Positions 25,569 to 33,759 of a DNA stretch of 52,578 nt are shown one piece after another. Source of the DNA: Hallerella porci (lineage in GTDB: Bacteria > Fibrobacterota > Fibrobacteria > Fibrobacterales > Fibrobacteraceae); assembly GCF_003148885.1 (NCBI RefSeq), contig NZ_QGHD01000004.1:95208-147785 (forward strand), written 5' to 3'. Within the stretch, counting starts at the first letter, position 1. Each line of letters starts with the position of its first letter. The position numbers and the translations under genes are program-made. The notes under the pieces were generated by a model. It did not search any database and was not told where the DNA came from. It was given only the letters and a program-made list of their open reading frames with translations.

Positions 25569-26347
25569 TTATGTTCACCCATTTTCTGCTGACGTGATTT
25601 TCGAAATTCTGCAGCGCGTTTTTTCGCCACAAGAAGTTTCGGCAATCGCAAAAGCATGCCGCAACAAAGACGCGTATGCAGCCAAGAAATATCGATGTTA
25701 TCGTGCAACATTCGGAAATTGGAAATGCCGTGTTCCGGATAATTGACTTTCACCGGATAAGAAAACATGCTTACTCCCGCCCACGAAAGTCGCACTAAAA
25801 TTTCAATATCAAATCCCATGCGCAGCGAACGCAAATTTTCTAAAATCGGCATCGTTTGCAAAATCGGATAAATGCGAAATCCGCACATCGCATCGGGAAC
25901 TCGCCGAGAAAGCGTTTCAATCTTCACCCAAAAATTGGTAATCTTTCGACCTTGTTCACGGCTCTTTGGCACAGACGCATTGTACTGCGGAAAACCTGCG
26001 ATCAAACTTTTAAAATGCCTCCGCGATTCTTTGAGAAAAAACGGAATGGCTGCGGGATGATGTTGTCCATCGGCGTCAATTTGAAGCGCATGCGTAAATC
26101 CTTCTTTGTGCGCTTCGCGCATTGCAGTGCGAACAGCTGCGCCCTTTCCCAAATTAGAGCTGTGCGAAATCACCGTCACATCGGGAAATGATTCGGCGAC
26201 TTTATTGAGCACTTGCAAATCTTCGGGAGAATTTCCATCGTCCACAATAAACACGGGCAAATTTTGTTCTTTTAAATTTTTCACCACCGACCAAACCGTA
26301 TTTGCATGATGATAAACGGGGACAATAGCGCAGGGCTTAAATTCCAT
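25544..26347 (-). CDS. Family 2 glycosyltransferase (APE)
   Basis: A 267-residue GT-A fold glycosyltransferase. It has the nucleotide-binding VDDGNS (36-40) and metal site DAD at 91-93 (IDADGQHH), followed by CGFRIYP and GFDIEILVR, typical of dolichyl-phosphate-mannose-synthase-like GT2 enzymes. In this operon it probably glycosylates the polyene or its lipid. I start it at the ATG at 26347, which overlaps the preceding stop by one base (TAATG) and has GGAG at the right distance. The in-frame codons upstream lie inside the preceding gene. Confidence 0.9.
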   Translation of the reverse strand: MEFKPCAIVPVYHHANTVWSVVKNLKEQNLPVFIVDDGNSPEDLQVLNKVAESFPDVTVISHSSNLGKGAAVRTAMREAHKEGFTHALQIDADGQHHPAAIPFFLKESRRHFKSLIAGFPQYNASVPKSREQGRKITNFWVKIETLSRRVPDAMCGFRIYPILQTMPILENLRSLRMGFDIEILVRLSWAGVSMFSYPVKVNYPEHGISNFRMLHDNIDISWLHTRLCCGMLLRLPKLLVAKKRAAEFRKSRQQKMGEHKWKNTGHR

Positions 26348-28641
26348 TACAACTCCTTTTTGAGCACAAGGGTGCCCGAAGCGCAAACTTTTTCACCTTC
26401 TAACAACATGCGAAATGCGAGTTTTCCCGTTTCTTCCGAAAATTTTTCTTCGATTAAAAACGGAACATTGGGAAAAATCGGATGCATAAATTTAATGCGG
26501 AGCATTCGATCTAAATGCGAATTGCGTTTTAAAAATCCGCGGAAAAATCGCAGCACTAAATCGATTTGCACAACCGCCGGCAACAATTTAAATTCGGGAA
26601 AATGTCCATTGTAATAATCACTCGTTTCAGGAATCACGCATTTGACCGTAAACGCATTTTCTTCGAGATGATAACGCAAAATTTTAAAATTGAAATTTTC
26701 TGGAATTTCAAATAATCGTTGAATGTCGCGCACTTTAATTTTTCCCATCACATCTTGCGGAAGTTCTTCTAAATAGCGCCACTTTTTTGGAAGCACGGTA
26801 TTTTCCAAAAATCCAGAAAGATGAGCGCGGAAATATTCATTGATTTCTTTTTTCGATAAATTTTGAAACTGCGATAATCCCGCTTCGTTTAAAACAATTG
26901 CCGCCGCTAAAAATTGGCGTTTACCCGTCATCGGAACCACGCGCACATCGCGGACTAATTTTGTTTCGCGCAGGCGATTTTCTACTTCGGGAAGCGAAAT
27001 GCGCTTTTCTTCAATTTTCACAATGGAATCTGCGCGCCCGCACAAAGTAAATTTTCCATCGTTTTCAATTTTCCCTAAATCGCCGGTTAAAAATCCTTCG
27101 GCATCTGTATAAGACGATTGAATTTTTAAGCAACCATTTTCTGCTAGCGAAATTTGATTGGGCGGAATCGGCGTCCACAAAATTTCTTCTCGAATATCAC
27201 GAGTCGCAATGGCGCCCGCTTCGGTGCAACCGTAAATTTCTTGAACGCCATTTCCCGAAAGCGTTAAAACTTGACTGGCGACATCATCGGGCAAAACGCC
27301 GCCCGCCGATAACCAAAACGGTTTCGTTTTAAAATGCAATGGCGTTTTACTAACCGCTAAGCGTTTTAAAAATGCGGGACTCGCCACAATGACTGCGGGC
27401 TCTTTTTCAATCTGCGCAATTTCTTCGGGAAATTCAAATCGCATTCGACGAATTGGAAGCCCCGCAGAAATCGGTAAAAAAATTGAAAACGCAAGTCCGT
27501 AAATATGATGATGATTCACCGTCGAATAGATATTTCGATTCGCAAAATTTTTGGCAAATCGTTTTGCTAAAGCCTCCGCTTCATTTTCAAATTGCATTCC
27601 TGTTTTTGCAATTTCTTTCGGCGCGCCCGTCGTTCCCGATGTAAAAATAGAAGCTTTGACCGTTTGAATATCAAATGTTTCCCACGATTTTTCCGCAGAA
27701 AATTTCTCTAACACTTGCGGAATTTGCAGCGCATTTTCTGCACCCGAATCATTTAAAAATCCGATATTTGATTTTTGAATTTCGCGGATAAATTCTGGTT
27801 TGCAATTTGCGGTAAGCAAAATTTTCTTTTGACTTTGAAAAAGCGCAAATAAGGCGACGATAAAATAATACGAGTCATCCGCATTTAAAATCCACGAATC
27901 GAAGGATTCTTTTTCTATCGCGGTGCGAAGTTTCGAGACATCGGTTTTCAAATCTTTCCACGTTTTATTTTCCGAAGCGATTCCATTTCCGCTAAATGCA
28001 ACCACTGCATTTTCCGGTCGCGAGTCTGCGCGGAGTTTTGAAAACGGGATGTAAGACTGCAGAGTTGATTGTTTCATTTTTCGCACTCCATATTCAACCA
28101 CAAACAAAATTCCCATGCAAATATAGGAGATTAAACCGTTGTAAAGAGACCAAATTTTTTCATCGGCGAGAAGAACGGTCCACATCGCGATGCTTCCGTT
28201 TACGATGAAAAATAGGCACCACGCAATCGTGACTTTTTTACAATAACTTTCCACCGAGAAAGCATCTGCCGAAAGTAAAATGCGTTTGTCCGCAAAAGTC
28301 GCCAGGCGAAAAATTAAATTCGGTTTTCGAAAAAGCGTTGCCGAAAAAATGCAAAGCATTCCTGCGTTCACAAGAACCGGATAAATTTTCACCAAAATTT
28401 CATTGTTAAACGCAAACGCTAAACTGCCACAAAGAAACAAGAAAATGCAAAAGCCAATTTCTTTTGCTTTCAAATGGCCTTGTTTTTTTGTTGAAGAAAA
28501 AAGATGAAACGCCGCAAGCAAAAGCAATAAAAGGCTTAGCTTACGCGGCGAAAGCCCCCAAAATCGGAGACCGCAAAATACCAGAACAGGATAAAGAACC
28601 GATAACGCGGCAAAAAAAATCTTGCCCGTTAACGATTTCAT
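26347..28641 (-). CDS. Triple fusion: membrane domain, AMP-dependent acyl ligase and ApeI-like dehydratase
   Basis: A 764-residue protein with three parts. Residues 1 to about 190 are hydrophobic, with several membrane helices (for example LSLLLLLLAAFHLF and CIFLFLCGSLAFAF), resembling the COG4648-type membrane proteins of aryl polyene clusters. Residues about 195-640 form an adenylating enzyme with the P-loop-like FTSGTTGAPKE near 330, the NHHHIYGL segment, EIYGCTEAG and the GDLGKIENDGKF hinge. It should load the aromatic acid starter onto ACP. Residues about 650-764 are a hotdog dehydratase with NGHFPEFKLLPAVVQIDL. The ATG overlaps the ACP stop (ATGA), which fits an ACP partner. Confidence 0.9.
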   Translation of the reverse strand: MKSLTGKIFFAALSVLYPVLVFCGLRFWGLSPRKLSLLLLLLAAFHLFSSTKKQGHLKAKEIGFCIFLFLCGSLAFAFNNEILVKIYPVLVNAGMLCIFSATLFRKPNLIFRLATFADKRILLSADAFSVESYCKKVTIAWCLFFIVNGSIAMWTVLLADEKIWSLYNGLISYICMGILFVVEYGVRKMKQSTLQSYIPFSKLRADSRPENAVVAFSGNGIASENKTWKDLKTDVSKLRTAIEKESFDSWILNADDSYYFIVALFALFQSQKKILLTANCKPEFIREIQKSNIGFLNDSGAENALQIPQVLEKFSAEKSWETFDIQTVKASIFTSGTTGAPKEIAKTGMQFENEAEALAKRFAKNFANRNIYSTVNHHHIYGLAFSIFLPISAGLPIRRMRFEFPEEIAQIEKEPAVIVASPAFLKRLAVSKTPLHFKTKPFWLSAGGVLPDDVASQVLTLSGNGVQEIYGCTEAGAIATRDIREEILWTPIPPNQISLAENGCLKIQSSYTDAEGFLTGDLGKIENDGKFTLCGRADSIVKIEEKRISLPEVENRLRETKLVRDVRVVPMTGKRQFLAAAIVLNEAGLSQFQNLSKKEINEYFRAHLSGFLENTVLPKKWRYLEELPQDVMGKIKVRDIQRLFEIPENFNFKILRYHLEENAFTVKCVIPETSDYYNGHFPEFKLLPAVVQIDLVLRFFRGFLKRNSHLDRMLRIKFMHPIFPNVPFLIEEKFSEETGKLAFRMLLEGEKVCASGTLVLKKEL

Positions 28642-28898
28642 TTTTTATCGAGAGAACCTTGAGCGGCGTCGAAAATTCCATCGACGACATCTTGTAAAGT
28701 CCGCATTTTTTTGAAGACTTCAGGATCCATATTTTTCGGAATATACTGTTTGAATTTAACGATTAAATCGACAGCATCAATGCTATCCAAATTCAAATCT
28801 TCGTATAATTTCGCTTCGGGAACCACTTTCTCGGGCTCCATTTCAAAATCGTTAATCAACGCTTCACGAATTTTTCCGTAGAGTTCTTGCTTGTCCAT
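28638..28898 (-). CDS. Acyl carrier protein 1 of the aryl polyene locus
   Basis: An 86-residue acidic ACP. The phosphopantetheine attachment site is Ser39 in LNLDSIDAVDLI, and helix packing fits the family. Known APE systems use two ACPs. This one directly precedes the AMP-ligase fusion, with a four-base overlap. No phosphopantetheinyl transferase is encoded in the window, so activation must come from elsewhere. Confidence 0.93.
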   Translation of the reverse strand: MDKQELYGKIREALINDFEMEPEKVVPEAKLYEDLNLDSIDAVDLIVKFKQYIPKNMDPEVFKKMRTLQDVVDGIFDAAQGSLDKK

Positions 28899-28901
28899 AA
28901 A

Positions 28902-29177
28902 TTAGTCCTTTTTATTTTCCCGGATGTATGCGGCAAGGGCATTCACGGAAGCAAAATGTTTACGGGTTTCTGCGTTGACGGTAGAAAATGTCACGCCAAA
29001 ATTATCCTTGATGGCAATTCCTAATTCCAAAGCGTCAATGCTATCGAGTTCAAGTCCTTTGCCTTCTTTATCTTTTCCAAAGAGAGGCGCATCGTCATCG
29101 ATATCCGCTGGGGTGATATCTTCTAATTCAAGCGCTTTGATCAGCACATCCTTGATTTGCAAATTCAAATCGGACAT
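28902..29177 (-). CDS. Acyl carrier protein 2 of the aryl polyene locus
   Basis: A 91-residue ACP, the first gene of the minus-strand APE operon. Ser46 in LELDSIDALELG is the 4'-phosphopantetheine site. I start it at the ATG at 29177 because GGAG lies just upstream and the product MSDLNLQIKDVL is a normal ACP opening; an earlier in-frame ATG adds an unlikely 14-residue extension. The two ACP genes are separated by three bases. An AT-rich region with a TATATT element lies about 30 bases upstream on this strand, but no convincing -35 was found. Confidence 0.92.
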   Translation of the reverse strand: MSDLNLQIKDVLIKALELEDITPADIDDDAPLFGKDKEGKGLELDSIDALELGIAIKDNFGVTFSTVNAETRKHFASVNALAAYIRENKKD

Positions 29178-29267
29178 AAAATCTCCAACAAAGTGATGTT
29201 CAAAATATAGTAAGTGCAACGCAAAAAATGATCCCGTTTCACGAGAAAATGAAGTGCAAAAGGTAAG

Positions 29268-30183: not shown

Positions 30184-31446
30184 TTAGAGAGCGATGATTT
30201 TTTCGTTTTCCATCAACTGTTCAAATGTCTGCCGTTCACGAATCACGTGCAATTCTCCATTTGAAAGAAGAATTTCCGGAGCGTAACGACGGCTATTATA
30301 ATTGCTCGACATCGCACTTCCGTAAGCACCTGCATCGTGCAAAACCAAGAAATCGCCGACTTTAGCTTCGGGCAATTTCCGCGTTACGACAAAGCCGCCT
30401 TCTTCTTGCGTAAAGACATCACCCGATTCGCAAAGCGGACCTGCGACGATGACATCTTTTTCGGAATCCAATTTGCGTCCATCTTTTGAAACAATGGAAA
30501 TCGCATGATAAGATCCGTAAAAAGACGGGCGCACGAGATCATTGAAGCCAGCGTCTACCAAATAGAACAATTTATCTTCTTGGAATTTTACCGCGCGAAT
30601 TTCGGCGACGAGCACAGCGCTTTCTGCGACCAAGTAACGTCCCGGTTCCACTTCGAGAGCGACATCATGTCCGATCGATTGCGCAATATCTTTGCGGGCT
30701 TTATCCCACAAATCGTAATATGCTTTTACATCGATGCGGTTTCCTTTTTCGCTTTCTTTATACGGAATCGGAAGTCCTCCGCCTGCAGAAATCACGCGGA
30801 GATGTGAACCTAAACGGCGCGAAGCGTCGCGCATGGCATCGCAAACTTTGGAAAGATGTTCAAAGTCCGAGCCGCTGCCGATATGCATGTGCAGACCCGT
30901 AATCCACATTCCGTTTGCCTGCGCCAACTTAACGCAATCTTTAATCTGCGAATGCCAAACGCCGTGTTTCGAAAGCGGTCCACCCGTATTCGTTTTTTGC
31001 GAATGACCGTGGCCAAATCCCGGATTCACGCGAAGAGTCAAATTTGATTTCACTCCTGCGTCAGCGAGTTGCTGAATCATATCCGCCGAGCCGACGTTCA
31101 CATGGATATTGTATTTCTTCACAAGTTCCAATGCGTCGCGGTCAAAAATATCCGCCGTGTAAACGATTTGCGGAACTTGCTTGTCGCTTTCGTCGCCTTT
31201 AAATCCTGCGCGTAAAGCGCGGACAATTTCACCAGCACTCACAGCATCCACTACAGCGCCACATTTTTTAATCAGCGAAATAATGGAAAGATTGGGGCAA
31301 GCTTTTTGAGCGAAACGAACTGTATCGAAGCACTTGAGTTCCTGAACACGCTTTTCGATAGTCGCCCGATCATAAAGCCAAAAAGGGGTGCCGTATTGCG
31401 CGACACCCTCTCGAATAATTTCGTCCGAAAAAATCGAATTAGACAT
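30184..31446 (-). CDS. lysA: Diaminopimelate decarboxylase
   Basis: A 420-residue PLP enzyme that converts meso-diaminopimelate to lysine. The PLP lysine is K48 in FAQKACPN. Other motifs are HMHIGSGSD, the phosphate loop GGGLPIPY, EPGRYLV and the active-site CESGDVF. I start it at the ATG at 31446 (MSNSIFSDEIIREG), overlapping the previous stop by eight bases; the long upstream in-frame extension lies inside that gene. It is downstream of the H1-like/CBM48 gene and ends at a strong terminator. Confidence 0.94.
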   Translation of the reverse strand: MSNSIFSDEIIREGVAQYGTPFWLYDRATIEKRVQELKCFDTVRFAQKACPNLSIISLIKKCGAVVDAVSAGEIVRALRAGFKGDESDKQVPQIVYTADIFDRDALELVKKYNIHVNVGSADMIQQLADAGVKSNLTLRVNPGFGHGHSQKTNTGGPLSKHGVWHSQIKDCVKLAQANGMWITGLHMHIGSGSDFEHLSKVCDAMRDASRRLGSHLRVISAGGGLPIPYKESEKGNRIDVKAYYDLWDKARKDIAQSIGHDVALEVEPGRYLVAESAVLVAEIRAVKFQEDKLFYLVDAGFNDLVRPSFYGSYHAISIVSKDGRKLDSEKDVIVAGPLCESGDVFTQEEGGFVVTRKLPEAKVGDFLVLHDAGAYGSAMSSNYNSRRYAPEILLSNGELHVIRERQTFEQLMENEKIIAL

Positions 31447-31981
31447 TCTTGACGCTATTTTCGCCACCCTGACCGTCAGGAACGCGGTCCGGATTTGCTT
31501 GGTCAATTTCCCAGCTTCCGTCAAAGACGAATTTATATTGGTAAGAACCTGCAGCAAGACTTGTTTTCAAAGTCCACACGCCTTGTTCCCCTTTTGTCAT
31601 CGCAGCCGGAGTCCAGTTGTTGAATTCGCCCGCGACTTCAACCTTTTGAGAATCGGGAGAATAAACGCTGAAGACGACTTCGGTCAATTCGACCTTGGAC
31701 GCTTTCTTCGCTTTCGGAGCTGCTTTGACAACTTTTGCCGCCTTCGGAGCCTTTGCGACTTTTGCAACAGTCTTTTCAACTTTCGCCAGTTTGACAGCTT
31801 TCGGAGCAGCCTTCGGTGCAGCTTTTGCGGCAACTTTAGAAGCAGCCTTATTTGCCACCTTTTCCACTTTCGCCGGCTTGACAGCCTTCGCTACCGTTTC
31901 TTTTTTCGGAGCGGTTTTTGCAGCCTTTGCAGGGGCTTTCTTGGCAGGAGCCTTTCTCACAGTTTTCGTTTGAGTTGACAT
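31439..31981 (-). CDS. Histone H1-like Lys/Ala-rich tail fused to a CBM48 glycogen-binding domain
   Basis: A 180-residue protein in two parts. Residues 1 to about 97 are a Lys/Ala/Pro repeat (KKAPAKAAK, AAPKAAPKA, VAKVAKAPKAAK) like bacterial histone H1 homologues and DNA-condensing tails. Residues about 98-175 form a compact CBM48/AMPK-type glycogen-binding domain: VFSVYSPDSQKVEVAGEFNNW, then GVWTLKTSLAAGSYQYKFVFDG and NPDRVPDGQGG. The FNxW and YxYKFxxDG motifs are carbohydrate-contact signatures. No signal peptide is seen, so it is cytoplasmic. A very strong GGAGG precedes the ATG, suggesting high expression. It overlaps lysA by eight bases. Function is unknown; linking glycogen to nucleic acid or polyanions is inference. 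Confidence 0.88.
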   Translation of the reverse strand: MSTQTKTVRKAPAKKAPAKAAKTAPKKETVAKAVKPAKVEKVANKAASKVAAKAAPKAAPKAVKLAKVEKTVAKVAKAPKAAKVVKAAPKAKKASKVELTEVVFSVYSPDSQKVEVAGEFNNWTPAAMTKGEQGVWTLKTSLAAGSYQYKFVFDGSWEIDQANPDRVPDGQGGENSVKNV

Positions 31982-32131
31982 CGATCAACCTCCTTTTATT
32001 GTGCATAAAATAATAGCAAATTAAACTCAAATTGTGTATTTCCTTTTTTTAGTTTTTGTTTTTAGAAATGCTTCAAAAGAGAACAAAAACTCTTTCTATT
32101 TTTTGCGAAAACTTTTTCCGGAAGAATTCTT

Positions 32132-32785
32132 ATGACAAAGCCTTCTGCAATCATTGCCCCGAGCGTTTTGAACGCAAACTTTCTCCGCTTACAAGATGAA
32201 ATTTCTGCGATAGAAAAAGGCGGCGCAGGACTCGTTCACTTAGATATTATGGATGGACATTTCGTTCCTAATATCAGTTTCGGTCCCGACATTTCGAAGC
32301 AAATCGGCAAAGCGTCCTCTCTTCCGATGGATTGCCATTTGATGATTAGCAATCCCGAAATGTTCGTTGATGAATTTGCCAAAGCAGGCGCGCGTTACAT
32401 TTCAATTCAAGCCGAATCAACGCATCACTTAGACCGCATTTTAAATCGCATTCGCGAACTCGGCGCAAAGCCCGCAGTAAGCATTAACCCTGCAACTCCC
32501 ATCGAAAATATCAAATGGGTTTTGGATACGGTCGATATGGTGCTCGTGATGTCGGTGAATCCAGGCTTCGGCGGACAAAGTTTAATTCCCTATTGCTTGG
32601 ATAAAATTCACGAATTGCGTTCTCTCAAACCGGAACTCGATATCGAAATTGACGGCGGCGTAAAATTGTCAAATATCCTCGATGCAAAAAAAGCGGGAGC
32701 CAATATCTTCGTCGTCGGCAGTGCGATTTTCAAAACAGAATCGCCCGAAGAAACTTGCCGTGAATTTGTGAATCAGGTGAAGTAA
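32132..32785 (+). CDS. rpe: Ribulose-phosphate 3-epimerase
   Basis: A 217-residue TIM-barrel enzyme of the pentose phosphate pathway that interconverts ribulose-5-phosphate and xylulose-5-phosphate. It shows the metal and catalytic segments LDIMDGHFVPNISFG, DCHLMI, MSVNPGFGGQ and IEIDGGV. Length and order are normal. GGAAGAA precedes the ATG. The Nudix/PNPOx gene follows after 14 bases and is probably co-transcribed. Confidence 0.96.
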   Translation: MTKPSAIIAPSVLNANFLRLQDEISAIEKGGAGLVHLDIMDGHFVPNISFGPDISKQIGKASSLPMDCHLMISNPEMFVDEFAKAGARYISIQAESTHHLDRILNRIRELGAKPAVSINPATPIENIKWVLDTVDMVLVMSVNPGFGGQSLIPYCLDKIHELRSLKPELDIEIDGGVKLSNILDAKKAGANIFVVGSAIFKTESPEETCREFVNQVK

Positions 32786-32799
32786 ATTTCTGCGGAGAA

Positions 32800-33759
32800 A
32801 TGATGTTAAACACATCCCTTTGCTACATCGAACAAAACGGTTCTTATCTGTTGCTTCACCGCGTAAAAAAGCAGAACGATATCAATCACGATAAATGGAT
32901 TGGAATCGGCGGGAAATTTGAAGAAGGCGAAAGCCCCGAAGATTGCGTGCGGCGAGAAGCCCGCGAAGAAACGGGACTCGAACTTTTAGATTTAAAATAC
33001 TGCGGAATCGTTACCTTCGTAAGCGACGGAATGAACGAAGTCGAATTTATGCATCTCTTTCGGGCGACAAAATTTTCGGGCGAATTGAAAGAATGCGACG
33101 AAGGCGTTTTAGAATGGATTCCCAAAGAAAAATTTGCAGAGCTTCCGCATTGGGATGGCGACCGCATTTTCTTAACTCTCATCGATCGCGAAGTTCCATT
33201 CTTTTCGTTAAAACTCACATATCGAGGGAACACTCTTACCGAAGCACTTCTCAACGAAAAGCCCGTTCAAGCTAGCGATTTCGCTTACGGTTCTCTTCCC
33301 GAATTTCCGCCGATGCGACGTCATGAACGCGAACTTTCCCGCGAAGATGCGATGGAAATTTTAACGCAAAATGAATACGGCATTCTTGCAACAGAAAATT
33401 CCATCGGTTATCCTTATGGAATTCCTTTGAGTTACGCCTTTGACGGGGAACATATTTGGTTTCACGGCGCAAAAGCGGGCGAAAAATTTAACGCCATTAC
33501 AAGAAATTCCCGCGTGAGTTTTACCGTTGTCCGCAACACAAAAATTCATCCGGAAAAATTCAGCACTGCCTTTGAAAGTTGCATTGTCTTCGGACGCGTT
33601 CGTATTCCCAAAGATCCCAAAATCGGTTTGCGTTTACTCGTCAAAAAATACAGCCCCGAATTTCAAGAAGCGGGCGATGCTTACATTGAACGCGCTCTGC
33701 ATAAAACCGGAGTTTTCCGCATTGACATTGAACACATTAGCGGGAAAAAACACGAATAA
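32800..33759 (+). CDS. Fusion of Nudix hydrolase and PNPOx-like flavin-binding domain
   Basis: A 319-residue two-domain protein. The N-terminal part is a MutT-like Nudix hydrolase with a perfect Nudix box at residues 38-60 (GKFEEGE, then REAREETGL), as in 8-oxo-dGTP diphosphatases. The C-terminal part, from about residue 175, is a split-barrel pyridoxamine-phosphate-oxidase-like domain: ILTQNEYGILATENSIGYPY, IWFHGAKAGEKFNAI and the SCIVFGRVRI strand, resembling NimA/flavin-nucleotide-binding proteins. One part would clean damaged nucleotides and the other might bind FMN; a shared redox role is inference. It follows rpe closely. Confidence 0.88.
   Translation: MMLNTSLCYIEQNGSYLLLHRVKKQNDINHDKWIGIGGKFEEGESPEDCVRREAREETGLELLDLKYCGIVTFVSDGMNEVEFMHLFRATKFSGELKECDEGVLEWIPKEKFAELPHWDGDRIFLTLIDREVPFFSLKLTYRGNTLTEALLNEKPVQASDFAYGSLPEFPPMRRHERELSREDAMEILTQNEYGILATENSIGYPYGIPLSYAFDGEHIWFHGAKAGEKFNAITRNSRVSFTVVRNTKIHPEKFSTAFESCIVFGRVRIPKDPKIGLRLLVKKYSPEFQEAGDAYIERALHKTGVFRIDIEHISGKKHE

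Follow-up and report, generated by a model that had tools for sequence, protein, structure and literature searches.

What might a small bacterial protein do that carries a strongly basic, histone-H1-like tail in front of a glycogen-binding domain? The question is raised by an open reading frame between lysA and rpe in a window of Hallerella porci DNA (the whole stretch analysed, 52.6 kb; Table 1), where the initial annotation had described a Lys/Ala/Pro repeat of about 97 residues joined to a CBM48 module and led by a very strong ribosome-binding site. Both descriptions were confirmed. Lysine (~28%) and alanine (~29%) dominate residues 1-97, a Lys/Ala/Pro/Val/Thr stretch that AlphaFold predicts to be disordered (mostly pLDDT <50), and Pfam assigns residues 98-172 to the CBM48 type with scores above the cut-offs. 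The ribosome-binding site AAGGAGGT is the sole copy found when both strands of the window were scanned, and it is kept in relatives from the same genus, with close relatives showing the extended form AAGGAGGTTGAT. A chance or spurious reading frame was rejected because the architecture recurs, in the same frame, in relatives, and the protein is conserved in frame across the family. Searches for other elements yielded zero Rfam matches within the window, and promoter and terminator scans gave signals barely above shuffles.

Table 1. Features of the tailed CBM48 locus, with positions in the window
Feature	Position	Strand	Remarks
lysA, diaminopimelate decarboxylase	30184..31446	minus	ATG lies in an 8-nt overlap with the end of the tailed gene, stop included
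Overlap of lysA and the tailed gene, ATGTCTAA	31446-31439	minus	8 nt
Tailed CBM48 protein, open reading frame	31439..31981	minus	180 aa + stop; ATG start
AMPK-beta-type glycogen-binding CBM48 module	31442..31690	minus	residues 98-180; Pfam, AlphaFold, Foldseek
Lys/Ala/Pro-rich disordered tail	31691..31981	minus	residues 1-97; net charge ~+25; contains PAKKA
Very strong ribosome-binding site, AAGGAGGT	31988..31995	minus	6 nt 5' of the ATG
rpe, ribulose-phosphate 3-epimerase	32132..32785	plus	divergent conserved neighbour, upstream

The folded half of the protein could be assigned with good scores to known glycogen-binding domains. Pfam matched residues 98-172 to AMPK1_CBM (PF16561; E 4e-12, 46.5 bits against a cut-off of 26.8) and to CBM_48 (PF02922; E 5e-11, 43.3 bits against 22.4), both cut-offs being the curated gathering values. 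The AlphaFold model of the module has pLDDT >90 along most of its length, and its top Foldseek matches in the PDB were the plant glucan phosphatase SEX4 and AMPK glycogen-binding domains (~1.0-1.7 Å), with a beta-sandwich fold matching 1z0n and 4cfe. The module thus shares with the glycogen-binding domain of the AMPK beta subunit (PF16561) both the fold, over ~80 columns, and the glucan contacts; unlike AMPK beta, the protein has no kinase partner region and carries a basic tail. In AMPK, glycogen binding is lost with the substitutions W100G and K126Q and reduced with W133L (PMC6274970). A phmmer comparison with rat AMPK beta1 aligned these three contact residues with W123, K150 and W157 of the module, respectively. 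N175 is, by its position in the module, the equivalent of AMPK N150, which we take to be a further glycogen contact; among relatives W123, K150 and N175 never vary and W157 hardly does. As the AMPK fold and all four contacts are kept, the protein can be predicted by homology, with good confidence, to bind glycogen.

Other identities for the protein were considered. No GH13 catalytic domain is present in its 180 residues, and the NCBIfam matches of the module to GlgB-type profiles were weak and far under their cut-offs, which argues that the protein is not an enzyme. Identity as a linker histone H1 was rejected, as there was no match to the winged-helix linker-histone domain and CBM48 is the only folded domain. 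Pfam likewise gave no match to the phasin family.

The gene content of the genomes was examined for the polymers that such a protein could serve. The Fibrobacter lineage stores much glycogen, and GlgB and a GlgA-like enzyme are both present in the genome. The GlgA-like enzyme (G000:C38:16058-17440) scores 166 bits over the full profile, for which the curated cut-off is 328, and the glycogen synthase of Fibrobacteraceae appears from its sequence to be divergent. Two order-level relatives from family f2 have the tailed gene with no strong GlgA match, which counts against a glycogen tether; GlgA is a weakly informative discriminator here, since every genome yields some glycosyltransferase match. 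The PHA synthase PhaC was not found in 41 genomes (the organism's own and 40 relatives), and PHA was rejected as the cargo on this ground. With no PHA synthase and a module that points to glycogen, glycogen is the cargo indicated. PPK1 is present in the genome, so that polyphosphate is possible as a partner of the tail.

The tail was found at all 67 of the named Fibrobacterota loci examined. Taken together with the one in the window, the 68 tails range from 36 to 116 residues in length (some being short, at 36-45), from 22 to 40% in lysine and from +10 to +36 in net charge, with arginine almost absent and acidic and large hydrophobic residues few. The initial annotation had raised the possibility that the tail is a variable spacer in homologues, and this held for its length, which was unequal in 228 of 239 close pairs (module length was unequal in none), but of all residues lysine was the best conserved, and strong basicity was common to every tail. 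Although inflated by kinship, because they are drawn from related and non-independent sequences, the counts of substitutions at aligned tail positions in these pairs (Lys 6.5%, Ala 16%, Pro 25%, Thr 42%) and of motifs in the 68 tails relative to shuffles (PAKKA, 50 observed vs 5.0 and present in 41 tails; KAAPK, 62 vs 5.2; AAKP/KPAA, 143 vs 37) all indicate constraint. KKK is depleted in the same tails (2 observed vs 99, subject to the same inflation), an avoidance whose cause may lie in translation and not in binding.

If the tail were a low-complexity spacer, under no selection and binding nothing, this would fit the unequal lengths and the fact that tails cannot be aligned between genera; we regard this reading as very unlikely given that lysine changes most slowly, that net charge is kept in 68 of 68 tails and that ordered motifs exceed the shuffles. 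The tail cannot be called a free spacer, because its charge and spacing persist as sequence and length drift, and such drift is expected of disordered tails that bind polyanions. Lysine-rich tails bind polyanions non-specifically, and this tail likely binds a polyanion as well.

The parallel that fits both halves of the protein, and which the initial annotation had missed, lies in the granule proteins PhaF, PhaM and AlgP, each of which combines a granule-associated part with a histone-H1-like tail bearing KPAA or PAKKA motifs (PMC9239181; PMC13052382; PMC9049629). In PhaM, the lysines of the PAKKA motifs hold PHB on the nucleoid (PMC9049629); for PhaF and AlgP granules, the presumed nucleoid anchors are the KPAA tails (PMC9239181). 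PhaF of Pseudomonas putida and PhaM of Ralstonia eutropha resemble the tailed CBM48 protein in being small and bipartite, with a granule part and a disordered Lys/Ala/Pro tail carrying PAKKA or AAKP/KPAA motifs, and their tails bind DNA non-specifically; their granule part, however, is a phasin or hydrophobic helix with PHA as cargo, whereas that of the Fibrobacter-group protein is a CBM48 module directed at glycogen. AlgP of Pseudomonas aeruginosa has a similar histone-H1-like KPAA tail and is required for granule spacing, but its granules are of polyphosphate and its helical N-terminal domain is unrelated. The tail is C-terminal in all three and N-terminal in the tailed CBM48 protein, a point against an equivalent function. 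In architecture (granule domain plus Lys/Ala/Pro tail) and in its PAKKA/KPAA motifs, the protein nonetheless has the predicted features of a granule-to-nucleoid tether.

We therefore give an even chance to the reading that this is a two-headed tether of glycogen granules, a glycogen 'phasin', with CBM48 on glycogen and the tail on a polyanion, most likely chromosomal DNA. The C-terminal module would attach to the glycogen surface and the N-terminal disordered tail would grip the polyanion non-specifically, so that a granule bearing many copies would be attached to the nucleoid. Granules tethered in this way would be held apart and shared between daughter cells, as PHA granules are by PhaF and PhaM and polyphosphate granules by AlgP. 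The initial annotation had suggested a tether between glycogen and nucleic acid or polyphosphate, or an organiser of glycogen granules, and this stands as the best-supported reading on the grounds of architecture, conservation, contacts and tail charge; beyond it, we infer DNA as the partner of the tail and the positioning and segregation of granules as the role.

RNA, ribosomes or polyphosphate would be equally plausible partners of a basic disordered tail, and the protein may instead connect glycogen with polyphosphate granules or the translation machinery, or drive mixed condensates. This alternative, which we consider unlikely while taking it seriously, draws on the presence of PPK1, on the lack of specificity of lysine-rich tails and on AlgP, which with its similar tail is located on polyphosphate granules (PMC9239181). 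It is weakened by the motifs of the tail, which best match those reported as DNA anchors of granules, and by a neighbourhood that shows no polyphosphate or ribosome link.

Slightly less likely in our judgement is a scaffold in which DNA is uninvolved, the CBM48 module presenting glucans and the tail recruiting a glycogen enzyme or keeping the surface soluble through charge repulsion. Its models are plant PTST2 and PTST3, which are likewise non-catalytic carbohydrate-binding scaffolds that help alpha-glucan granules start at a set place, and which act through the partners SS4 and MFP1 rather than through a basic tail; PTST2 functions in the initiation of starch, the place of which is determined by its partner MFP1 (PMC10801857). 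That the conserved property of the tail is its charge, and that related Fibrobacterota join CBM48 to very different partners, would suit such a scaffold. The tail, however, contains neither a coiled coil nor a conserved interaction motif, and repulsion would not need the enrichment of PAKKA-type motifs.

The genomic neighbourhood was examined for further indications of function. No glycogen genes adjoin the tailed gene, whose neighbours are lysA and rpe, and this is a point against the tether. In most of the family, a gene with a lysine-rich tail directly precedes a gene of lysine biosynthesis: lysA is found downstream in the same orientation at 53 of the 67 named loci (some of the others end too early to judge), and a divergent rpe lies upstream at 45 of the 67. 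The overlap with lysA in the window, which had also escaped the initial annotation, implies that translation of the two genes is coupled in this genus. Translation of a lysine-rich tail just 5' of lysA could couple lysine supply to lysA translation, and both the overlap and the recurrence of lysA would suit a regulatory upstream gene of this kind. We consider it very unlikely, as in many genomes of the F. succinogenes type the spacing is ~50-1800 nt, the copies in family f4 have no lysA nearby, and the conserved glycogen module would be left unexplained. Because the spacing to lysA grows to 1.8 kb and the f4 copies have neither lysA nor rpe nearby, the position reads as a housekeeping location with no functional link.

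Two other gene arrangements were observed in the window. An AMP-ligase/ApeI-like fusion at 26347-29219 stands beside two acyl-carrier-protein-like genes and looks like part of an aryl-polyene/lipid cluster, and the reading frame beside rpe at 32800-33759 reads by eye as a fusion of a Nudix hydrolase with a flavin/PNPOx-like domain.

The tailed protein is restricted to a single lineage, a further feature that was missing from the initial annotation. When 41 genomes were searched, 16 of 17 genera had matches, the best of these matches sharing the two-part layout, and the module profile matched strongly (E 3e-23 or better) in 102 of 111 genomes of the Fibrobacteraceae family, each of the nine without a match being at most 84% complete. 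Fibrobacter intestinalis ATCC 43854 is among the named relatives with the tailed gene, as are many F. succinogenes MAGs. Tailed forms occur in families f1, f2 and f4, and none was found in f3 by the module profile search. The genome itself has one tailed copy, its only other CBM48 lying in an 811-aa frame taken as GlgB. A single scan of GTDB contigs, run with one pattern that distant tailed proteins could escape, returned tailed proteins from Fibrobacterota only and otherwise amylase-type enzymes. The tail is not a common genomic module, since a query with the tail alone against its own genome gave no match but itself up to an E of 10.

Stand-alone CBM48 proteins of ~100 aa are widespread in Bacteroidota and also occur in other classes of Fibrobacterota; they have the same small non-catalytic module and, unlike the protein described here, those examined carry a short N-terminus and no Lys/Ala tail. 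Spread of the tail to other phyla was rejected, as the one-pattern GTDB scan gave tailed proteins from Fibrobacterota only and the ~15 short Bacteroidota proteins examined were all tailless. The simplest history is that the class with tailed forms descends from an ancestor in which a ~100-aa CBM48 protein had acquired the tail. Since tail charge and glycogen contacts are kept, and the short CBM48 proteins examined elsewhere are tailless, a granule tether specific to Fibrobacteria is suggested.

Different CBM48 layouts were also seen in this phylum. In a same-class relative (locus L182, G039:C111:19700-21300), a 243-aa protein has amphipathic, apolipoprotein-like helices in place of the Lys/Ala tail before CBM48 (a weak Pfam match to PF01442, E 4e-4, under its cut-off), and may represent a second type of coat protein for glycogen granules. 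At four loci in other Fibrobacterota (L026, L180, L184 and L185), a Cys-rich, anti-sigma-factor-like N-terminus and an apparent membrane helix, both assigned by eye, precede a C-terminal CBM48, a layout that suggests a membrane-bound glucan sensor.

Finally, the pairing had been put forward as one without a described function, and this agrees with the open-access literature searched, in which no glycogen protein of this kind is described. A 2025 review on organelle positioning leaves glycogen unmentioned. Nucleoid tethers are known for PHA and polyphosphate granules, and an equivalent for glycogen was not found in that literature. Glycogen in E. coli phase-separates into condensates that are inherited at the old pole and shove nucleoids aside (PMC12706056). 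For cells with large glycogen stores, a link from glycogen to the nucleoid would counter both this old-pole inheritance and the displacement of nucleoids. Tentatively, and at just short of an even chance, the protein may be the first bacterial glycogen-to-nucleoid tether, by which Fibrobacteria would have independently assembled a glycogen organelle that is attached to the chromosome and evenly inherited. As glycogen is a very common bacterial carbon store, a conserved single-gene candidate makes its placement and sharing testable, and suggests that the use of a disordered tail has been repeated for a third storage polymer.
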